This document shows positions 62,257 to 64,000 of a DNA stretch of 64,000 bases, in pieces (the first letter of the stretch is position 1; the number at the start of each line of letters is the position of its first letter). The notes beneath the pieces were generated by a model. It was not told the DNA's origin and ran no database searches. It saw only the letters and a program-made list of their open reading frames with translations. The stretch is from a virus. The position numbers were made by a program, and so were the translations under genes. The stretch covers positions 33,067 to 97,066 of IMG/VR virus record IMGVR_UViG_3300007735_000793; one strand, given 5' to 3'.

Positions 62257-62332
62257 GGGTGATTGATGGGAATCGAACCCATGACCTACTGAACCACAAT
62301 CAGTTGCTCTAACCATCTGAGCTACAACCACC
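62257..62332 (-). tRNA. tRNA-His (GUG)
   Basis: GGTGGTT/AATCACC acceptor, C discriminator as in bacterial tRNA-His, stem ACTGA/TCAGT, loop TTGTGGT (GTG). The -1 base is T, so G-1 is not encoded. Confidence 0.92.
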
Positions 62333-62341
62333 ATAAATACT

Positions 62342-62791
62342 TTATCTACAATGATAATCTGCTGCACGAGTTGCAATTTGAATATCAGGTTTAACATTTA
62401 CTTTATATCCTAATGATACTGCCCACCCCCGTGTCGCTCCTATAAGTTTATTAGATTGAGAAAATTCATCCTGATTATAATCCATATCAATTTCAACTTT
62501 AATATTGATTTGTTGAGTAAACCATTCTGCAACTTCTATTGTACGAGAACATTCATCAAATAATCTTGTAAACATATCTCTAACCAATGGAACTTTTTCT
62601 TTTGTATAGATATAATGAACTCCTCTTACACCAAAACGATATGCTATTACCGTTACATATGATGTTTCCAAACCTACATTTTGAGAATCAGTACCAATAT
62701 GGACTTTTAAATTAGGATGTATTTTCATTATCTCTAAAGTATGTTCGATAACATCTACCACTTTATTGTTTACTGATTTGAACCTTTTCAT
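62342..62791 (-). CDS. YkuK-like (DUF458) RNase H-fold protein
   Basis: A 149-residue protein. KVHIGTDSQN with the acidic pair, YVTVIAYRFGVRGVHYIY, KVPLVRDMFTRLFDECSRTI, EIDMDYNQDEFSQSNKLIGA and RGWAVSLGYKV match the YkuK/DUF458 predicted RNase H-like family. Its substrate is not known. It lies in the middle of the tRNA array, which could point to tRNA processing but may be chance. Confidence 0.82.
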   Translation of the reverse strand: MKRFKSVNNKVVDVIEHTLEIMKIHPNLKVHIGTDSQNVGLETSYVTVIAYRFGVRGVHYIYTKEKVPLVRDMFTRLFDECSRTIEVAEWFTQQINIKVEIDMDYNQDEFSQSNKLIGATRGWAVSLGYKVNVKPDIQIATRAADYHCR

Positions 62792-62817
62792 TTTACTTCT
62801 ATTTTAGAAACTTTTTG

Positions 62818-62888
62818 CATGGGTAGTAGGATTCGAACCCACAACAACGCTTTTGGAGAGCGACATGATACCATTTCACTATACCCAT
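62818..62888 (-). tRNA. tRNA-Trp (CCA)
   Basis: ATGGGTA/TACCCAT acceptor, G discriminator, loop CTCCAAA (CCA). Confidence 0.92.
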
Positions 62889-62898
62889 ATTATCTTTG

Positions 62899-62969
62899 AG
62901 GTACTGATTGGATTTGAACCAATATAAGAGCTTTTGCAGAGCTCCACCTTGCCAGTCGGACACAGTACC
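62899..62969 (-). tRNA. tRNA-Cys (GCA)
   Basis: GGTACTG/CAGTACC acceptor, U discriminator required for Cys, stem GAGCT/AGCTC, loop CTGCAAA. Confidence 0.93.
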
Positions 62970-62975
62970 ATAATG

Positions 62976-63047
62976 TGGCTCTTGAACGATTCGAACGTCC
63001 AATACTTCGTCCGTAGCGAAGAGGTTTATCCATTAGCCTAAAGAGCC
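62976..63047 (-). tRNA. tRNA-Arg (ACG)
   Basis: GGCTCTT/AAGAGCC acceptor, CTTCG/CGAAG stem, loop CTACGGA (ACG). A34 would need deamination by TadA to read CGN. Confidence 0.93.
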
Positions 63048-63052
63048 TTGTG

Positions 63053-63126
63053 TTGGAATAGCCGGATTCGAACCAGCGACCTTTTGAATATCAGTCAAAT
63101 GCTCTAACCAACTGAGCTAAAGGTGT
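63053..63126 (-). tRNA. tRNA-Ile (GAU) with broken acceptor stem, possible pseudogene
   Basis: D arm, anticodon arm (TTTGA/TCAAA, loop CTGATAT, GAT) and T arm are intact. The 3' acceptor strand is TATTCCA but the 5' strand reads ACACCTT, which pairs at only one position. The 5' strand would have to be TGGAATA. Confidence 0.75.
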
Positions 63127-63131
63127 AAATG

Positions 63132-63204
63132 TGACCCCGAACGGAATCGAACCGTTACTCCCCTGGTTAAAAGCCAGGTGCTTTACCAATTAAGCTACGA
63201 AGTC
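63132..63204 (-). tRNA. tRNA-Lys (UUU), 5' end replaced next to HNH gene
   Basis: GACTTCG pairs with CGGGGTC using two G-U wobbles; stem CCTGG/CCAGG, loop CTTTTAA (TTT). The first bases overlap the last codons and stop of the HNH endonuclease gene (stop 63192-63190). A perfectly pairing alternative 5' end lies at 63872-63895. Confidence 0.9.
63181..63204 (-). repeat. tRNA-Lys 5' segment, direct repeat beside HNH gene
   Basis: 24 bases that match 63872-63895 at 19 positions; the two copies flank the HNH endonuclease. Confidence 0.8.
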
Positions 63205-63810
63205 ATATTCTCTTTTCAATCTATGACACCTATTATAGTTTCCGCCTTTAGGTGCTAACCCAACCGAAATAAGAGATTGTCTGAAATTCCACATATTGAG
63301 TAGTAGTGATTCTAATAAAGTTTCATCATTAACTCGCAGTTTTCTTTCTTTTTTATTTCTACCTCGCCATGTAGATGTGAGTGAATGACAATTAGGACAT
63401 AGCATTTCTAAATTATCTCTACAGTTATTAAAGTGATTACCATCTTTATGTTCTAATTCCAAAACTAAAGGAGTATTTAACCACTCATCCAATCCACATT
63501 TATTACATTTTTCATTTTGTTCGTATAATATTCTGGCTCTGAGAGATTCAAAACTTAAATCAGAATAATTGGACTCTAATATATGTTTTTTATGAGCCTC
63601 TCTTTTTGTTTTTGTTATTTTATCAATAATCTCCTTACTTTTCAGAGATTCTCGTTGTTTTATAGCTTTTTCAGAAGTTCTAGCAGCTTTTGATTTTTTT
63701 AATTTATCATTATCCGACCAAATTCTACTATTCCTACAATTCAAAGAGCAATAATTAATCAAACCTTTAGTTGGTTGAAAGTCGATTCCACATTTTTTAC
63801 ATTGTTTCAT
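63190..63810 (-). CDS. HNH homing-type endonuclease
   Basis: Start at ATG 63810 (MKQCKKCGIDFQPTKGLINY). About 206 residues. A zinc-ribbon-like N-terminus (CKKCG, YCSLNC) is followed by a Lys-rich helical linker and an HNH nuclease core: CNKCGLDEW, LELEHKDGNHFNNCRDNLEM and LCPNCHS. The last codons overlap the tRNA-Lys gene by 15 bases. Such free-standing HNH enzymes spread by cutting DNA at their insertion site. The gene is flanked by repeats of the tRNA 5' half. Confidence 0.88.
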   Translation of the reverse strand: MKQCKKCGIDFQPTKGLINYCSLNCRNSRIWSDNDKLKKSKAARTSEKAIKQRESLKSKEIIDKITKTKREAHKKHILESNYSDLSFESLRARILYEQNEKCNKCGLDEWLNTPLVLELEHKDGNHFNNCRDNLEMLCPNCHSLTSTWRGRNKKERKLRVNDETLLESLLLNMWNFRQSLISVGLAPKGGNYNRCHRLKREYDFVA

Positions 63811-63871
63811 AAGTTTTGTTTTAATATAAATATTATGTGGAACTCTCAAATATTAAAAAATTAAAAAATAA

Positions 63872-63895
63872 TTTAACCAATTGAGCTACGGGGTC
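63872..63895 (-). pseudogene. Orphan 5' fragment of tRNA-Lys
   Basis: On the minus strand GACCCCGTAGCTCAATTGG followed by TTAAA, then AT-rich DNA: a complete acceptor 5' strand and D arm with no anticodon arm. GACCCCG is a perfect complement of the CGGGGTC 3' acceptor of the tRNA-Lys at 63132, 660 bases away. It is the remnant of the tRNA before the HNH gene entered. Confidence 0.85.
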
Positions 63896-63900
63896 ATTTG

Positions 63901-63973
63901 TACTCTCGACAGGATTCGAACCTGTAACCTCGATGATATAAGCATCTTGCGCTAACCATTGCGCCACGAGAGC
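63901..63973 (-). tRNA. tRNA-Ile (UAU)
   Basis: GCTCTCG/CGAGAGT acceptor, loop CTTATAT with TAT at 34-36. This decodes AUA, useful in an AT-rich genome and uncommon in bacteria. Confidence 0.85.
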
Positions 63974-63982
63974 ATAATTATG

Positions 63983-64000
63983 AGGAAGAGGTGAGATTCG
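63983..64000 (-). tRNA. tRNA 3' end, cut by window edge
   Basis: Only the 3' acceptor strand (CTCTTCC) and part of the T arm are present. Identity cannot be read. Confidence 0.6.

Follow-up and report, generated by a model that had tools for sequence, protein, structure and literature searches.

In this study, we analyzed a tRNA-Lys site in a viral genome where the gene for an HNH endonuclease lies within the remains of one tRNA-Lys gene and runs into a second, complete one. The window, a stretch of 64,000 nt, corresponds to bases 33067-97066 of an IMG/VR record with a length of 97,066 bp (IMGVR_UViG_3300007735_000793). Related phages carry the site in three states, i.e., with an uninterrupted resident tRNA-Lys (Lys-A; state A), with the 5′ end of Lys-A followed by the HNH gene and a different tRNA-Lys (Lys-B; state B), or with Lys-B alone (state C). 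We consider the site a probable product of intronless homing into tRNA-Lys, in which a linked variant tRNA-Lys would have been co-converted and the unshared end of the target left behind as a remnant.

Results

A tRNA array was detected by ARAGORN on the minus strand at the right end of the window. Along that strand from 63973, the order is tRNA-Ile(TAT) (63900..63973), which forms the left flank and anchors the site in all relatives, a 5′ tRNA remnant (63873..63895), an A/T-rich leader (63811..63872), the HNH ORF (63190..63810) and a complete tRNA-Lys(TTT), Lys-B (63131..63204). The remnant begins 3-4 nt past tRNA-Ile(TAT) and comprises the first 21-22 nt of a tRNA, namely the 5′ strand of the acceptor, the 5′ side of the D stem and the D loop. 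It reads GACCCCGTAGCTCAATTGGTTA (63895-63874), or GACCCCGTAGCTCAATTGGTTAA with one more base (63895-63873), and its agreement with uninterrupted relatives stops at 63874, after A21. The leader, which is also seen 5′ of HNH in L002, L005, L006, L009 and L046, is 79% identical between the window and L002, and its motifs TTAA.TTATTTTTTAA... and GTTC.A.TTNATATTTATA recur where HNH relatives occupy other sites. On the left, the junction lies where the D loop ends: GGTTA runs into the leader, whose counterparts at other HNH loci start with TTAA, consistent with joining at short microhomology.

Lys-B was recognized by both ARAGORN and Rfam, and its score of 72.3 bits is the highest of any tRNA between 62300 and 64000 (Rfam). 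The acceptor is GACTTCG/CGGGGTC, with two G.U wobbles as described in an initial annotation of this DNA. The overlap with the HNH stop that it reported is likewise real: the last HNH codons, GAC TTC GTA GCT TAA, are nt 1-15 of Lys-B, giving an overlap of 15 nt with the stop codon at nt 13-15. RNase P processing at G1 of Lys-B would strip this stop codon from the HNH message. A second tRNA-Lys was found neither in the window nor in the remainder of the record, and the completeness, score and full cloverleaf fold of Lys-B support the earlier proposal that the phage has kept one working tRNA-Lys.

The HNH ORF encodes 206 aa, with its last five codons, stop included, inside the tRNA-Lys gene. The protein has an N-terminal CxxC segment, an HNH core and a C-terminal helical (HTH-like) segment. 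It was identified as an HNH endonuclease by its match to PHROG 14736 (E=3e-29), by the motif ELEHKDGN..NLEMLCPNCH, which is conserved in the homologue alignment, and by an AlphaFold model (pLDDT 83) whose nearest PDB folds are HNH domains, with weak E-values. In Pfam the window protein goes unnamed, and HNH models match weakly and only to other family members. A profile search of the PDB also returned cytochrome c-552, which we judged an artefact of CxxCH motifs. A scan of genome contigs for HNH relatives recovered distant HNH proteins only, and homologues in named phages are also distant (<60%); in T5-like named phages, the homologue overlaps tRNA-Leu by 6-7 nt.

Relatives of the site were gathered via the HNH protein, via tRNA-Lys patterns and, to anchor the search without bias, via the adjacent tRNA-Ile(TAT). 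State A, in which Lys-A reads GACCYCGTAGCTCAATTGGTTAGAGCTTCGCACTTTTAATGCGAAGGTTTCGGGTTCGAGTCCCGATGGGGTCAC, occurs in at least 10 contigs (L022-L027, L029, L031, L035 and L039; also L130, with GATCCCG), and the remnant is its 5′ end. State B is found in the window, L002-L004 and L005, and state C in L013, L015, L129, L141 and L145; some related phages carry the HNH gene at this site and others lack it. L027, the closest relative with the tRNA uninterrupted, reads ...ACAAATGACCCCGTAGCTCAATTGGTTA^GAGCTTCGCAC... (^, break point) and is the same as the window up to the break. Over remnant and spacer the two agree at 28/28 positions, and their downstream flanks are 87.7% identical. Comparison with phages lacking the HNH gene, proposed as a check in the initial annotation, thus recovered the gene in its uninterrupted form and bore out the view that the element lies inside a former tRNA-Lys gene. 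The remnant and spacer of L002 equal those of L023/L029 (28/28), and a single lineage contains all three states (L029, A; L005, B; L141, C) with flanks at 94.8-97.4%. Because each remnant with its spacer matches the Lys-A of its own lineage, and all three states occupy one site, the remnant represents the 5′ end that the resident tRNA-Lys originally had. When compared with the 5′ end of the downstream tRNA-Lys in two sister loci, the remnant gave a local score of 36 vs. a shuffle maximum of 20-21 (200 shuffles). Its pairing with the 3′ strand of the present tRNA, described in the initial annotation, is indeed perfect (7/7), but its real partner is TGGGGTC of the uninterrupted relatives rather than CGGGGTC of Lys-B.

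Between the window and L002, the HNH gene is 80% identical at the nucleotide level and the flanks 81.6%. Since the two divergences are equal, transfer between these lineages was not recent. The remnant is better kept than HNH (22/23), which could reflect renewal from local Lys-A alleles or chance. Among 37 HNH-next-to-tRNA loci searched for a 5′ remnant, one was present in L002 and L005 only (0/35 in the others); at older HNH insertions, remnants have either been lost since or were never there.

Lys-A and Lys-B differ beyond the 5′ end, in the D stem, anticodon stem, variable loop and T stem. Therefore, a whole variant tRNA-Lys, or at least nt 1 to ~53 of one, was brought in, and the idea that the element supplied only a new 5′ half is not supported in that form. 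The far 3′ end looks resident only in L005/L141, whose tRNA is Lys-A-like from the T loop onward; two changes restore T-stem pairs, one mismatch remains, and the chimeric T arm reads as the trace of a probable crossover in the T loop. Each tRNA variant found with HNH has an HNH-free twin with an identical tRNA (the window, L129/L145; L002, L013; L005, L141). An uninterrupted relative with GACTTCG as its original 5′ end had been named as the finding that would speak against replacement. Such relatives exist in L129 and L145, but their downstream flank is less similar to the window (82.8%) than that of L027, and they leave the remnant unexplained. A Lys-B-like tRNA also occurs in more distant phages (L271 and L272), whose arrays are similarly ordered and lack an HNH gene in the vicinity, and Lys-B therefore need not have come with HNH.

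Two further features of the array were observed. A chimeric tRNA (63054..63126, minus strand) neighbours Lys-B; it was missed by ARAGORN and gave a partial Rfam hit of 50.7 bits. Its 5′ acceptor and D arm come from tRNA-Val and the remainder from tRNA-Ile(GAT), with unpaired acceptor strands. L027 has separate Val-Phe-Tyr-Ile genes at this position, which indicates that ~256 bases were lost in the window and that the chimera formed by deletion between two TAGCTCAGTTGGTT D arms. In addition, a gene for an RNase H-like protein (PF04308; 62342-62791, minus strand) lies within the array between tRNA-Trp and tRNA-His. A gene resembling it directly follows tRNA-Ile(TAT) in L125, at a site without tRNA-Lys.

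In a tree of 71 HNH homologues, the window falls in a clade of nine (support 95) with tRNA-Lys at 9/9 loci; ARAGORN placed tRNA-Lys nearby in 8/9, and an interrupted tRNA-Lys was seen by eye in L008. The Lys label requires 6 changes on the tree vs. at least 10 in shuffles (0/300), and the Leu label 12 vs. at least 14 in 300 shuffles. The reading frame of many homologues extends into the tRNA downstream and often ends at U8-A9-R10 (overlap 10 nt). Since this offset is partly expected once the frame enters a tRNA, the 10-nt overlap shows abutment, not separate adaptation. In L006, the same HNH family abuts tRNA-Lys directly, with no remnant, so the HNH-Lys unit exists on its own.

The HNH proteins of L051 and L052 are ~43% identical to that of the window and occur in other phages, at an unrelated tRNA-Lys. 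The resident tRNA-Lys of these phages reads GGGGGTATAACTTAACGG...CTTTTAA...AGTTCGATTCTCTGTGCCCCTACCATA; matches to its 3′ end occur in at least 120 contigs, and the tRNA is complete at nearly all of the loci that we inspected. In L052, the upstream flank is followed by a different, complete tRNA-Lys, the leader, HNH and a 3′ remnant of the resident gene, AGAGTTCGATTCTCTGTGCCCCTACCATA. This is an independent mirror image of the window site, with the replacement tRNA-Lys upstream and a 3′ remnant downstream. L051 has an uninterrupted twin in L163 (98.8% in the upstream and 91.1% in the downstream flank). Only half a tRNA lies upstream of HNH in L051, and a search of its 14-kb contig gave 26 tRNAs but no tRNA-Lys. 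Since tRNA-Lys was lost there without rescue, rescue is frequent but not obligatory.

Several other HNH loci have unusual tRNAs. In L008, the 5′ part of a tRNA-Lys lies upstream of 3001 and a matching 3′ acceptor, TAGGTTCACA, past the HNH stop (3648), apparently a split tRNA-Lys without rescue. L064 and L045 carry 3′ tRNA fragments (T arm and acceptor) directly after HNH, as do L051 and L052. The tRNAs by the HNH genes of L045, L046, L009, L050, L052, L061 and L070 have odd T loops (AGCGTTA, ATCGTTA or ATCGTTC), with A at position 54 and U at 58 vs. the usual U54 and A58. In Gordonia phage Mareelih (L146), an HNH misc_feature (1192-1716) is annotated over the tRNA-Tyr gene (1582-1664).

Discussion

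The mechanism that we propose is intronless homing with co-conversion. A free-standing HNH gene with an adjoining downstream Lys-B would have moved into phages that carried Lys-A after tRNA-Ile(TAT). The enzyme may nick or cut Lys-A centrally, and repair would then copy HNH and Lys-B from the donor. Two unrelated tRNA-Lys genes are broken on opposite sides of the center, which suggests a cut in the central part of the tRNA. On the right, the exchange would end in homologous tRNA, in the T loop in L005 and at or beyond the 3′ end of the acceptor in the window. On the left, with little homology, the join would form where the D loop ends, by microhomology of GGTTA with the leader at TTA(A), and the first 21-22 nt of Lys-A would be left as a dead remnant. 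Lys-B would keep lysine decoding, presumably without the cut site, and so shield its carrier. Later loss of HNH by recombination of the two similar 20-nt 5′ tRNA ends could yield Lys-B alone.

The main rival, which we think rather unlikely, is that tRNA genes in the array recombined in the ordinary way, through D-arm and T-loop homology, swapping the Lys alleles and trapping HNH as a passenger, the nuclease being uninvolved. Such an event would resemble the D-arm recombination behind the Val/Ile(GAT) chimera in the same array, and it fits the occurrence of Lys-B without HNH as well as the equal divergence of HNH and flanks. However, it leaves unexplained why members of this HNH clade are found at tRNA-Lys even in phages whose arrays are unrelated and how a mirror-image insertion arose in a different tRNA-Lys. 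Because of this isotype association and the mirror-image case, an active role of the nuclease is favored. Similarly improbable in our judgment is that state C was the original empty site, into which HNH with an attached 5′ piece of Lys-A inserted just upstream of Lys-B, by repeated homing into Lys-B phages and with the tRNA body never replaced there. The three HNH-free twins with identical Lys-B are what this would predict, but in every lineage the remnant agrees with the Lys-A allele and spacer found locally, and the L005/L141 tRNA is itself chimeric with a Lys-A-like 3′ end. The direction between states B and C is partly resolved, and C could also be a site that never held HNH, not one from which it was lost. 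We give little credence to the original version, in which the target's own 3′ half persists in the present tRNA: the remnant pairs with the present 3′ strand, and the T loop and 3′ end of L005 look resident, but the anticodon stem, variable loop and T stem of the window are all unlike those of Lys-A in L027 and the other state A relatives. Finally, a self-splicing intron or an integrase-type element, although both typically insert within tRNA genes, is hardly credible, since Rfam showed no group I or other intron match, the insert has no integrase-sized gene in the ORF listing, and the complete tRNA lies outside the insert, making splicing unnecessary; around the ORF (62300-64000), the Rfam search for a ribozyme gave tRNAs and sub-threshold chance matches only, and the protein does not qualify as a group I intron-encoded endonuclease.

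Intronless homing as proposed here has precedents. T-even phages have free-standing homing endonucleases that spread by intronless homing with co-conversion of flanking DNA, and their HNH Mob enzymes nick their targets (PMC2988022, PMC13096335). One such enzyme, T4 SegB, belongs to the GIY-YIG family and is encoded between tRNA genes, with relatives that favor no particular isotype (PMC2988022; PMC13096335). The window resembles these systems in having an intronless endonuclease gene within a phage tRNA cluster. Unlike SegB, the window protein is an HNH enzyme and not a SegB member, its gene is embedded in what is left of one tRNA and overlaps the replacement copy, and its clade follows tRNA-Lys. 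The closest mechanistic parallel is provided by the mORFs of fungal mitochondria (Allomyces atp6; Glomus atp6, atp9, cox2 and nad3), where insertion of an endonuclease gene came with a foreign gene end and the native end was displaced as a remnant (PMC3630166). In the window, too, a foreign homologous piece associated with an endonuclease gene replaces a displaced native end that stays in place. The mORFs, in contrast, concern protein genes in mitochondria that gained new 3′ ends, and the atp6 mORF is a LAGLIDADG enzyme, whereas the window has an HNH enzyme and a phage tRNA with a new 5′ part or a wholly new tRNA. Integrases that insert in tRNA genes rebuild the 3′ end and thereby preserve tRNA function. 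Function is likewise preserved in the window, but the site has neither an integrase nor an att duplication, its rebuilt tRNA is a divergent variant, and what was left behind as a remnant is a 5′ end. In our literature search, which covered papers outside subscription, no report of an HNH insertion that replaced a tRNA was found.

Phage tRNA sets vary widely, and the reasons are debated, with codon supply and escape from tRNA-cutting defences among those proposed. More tentatively, the window protein may represent a family of HNH homing endonucleases in which each clade is specific for one tRNA isotype, cuts that tRNA and supplies a cut-resistant variant, acting as a natural gene drive for tRNA alleles. 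The stop codon buried in the tRNA might then limit synthesis of the nuclease, as RNase P processing would remove it. The findings extend the gene-end replacement of fungal mitochondria to a phage tRNA gene, and the allele pairs of states A, B and C provide ready material for assays of homing, resistance and loss. In these phages, a selfish nuclease appears to exchange one tRNA-Lys allele for another and to leave a footprint, and part of phage tRNA variation may be a by-product of homing.
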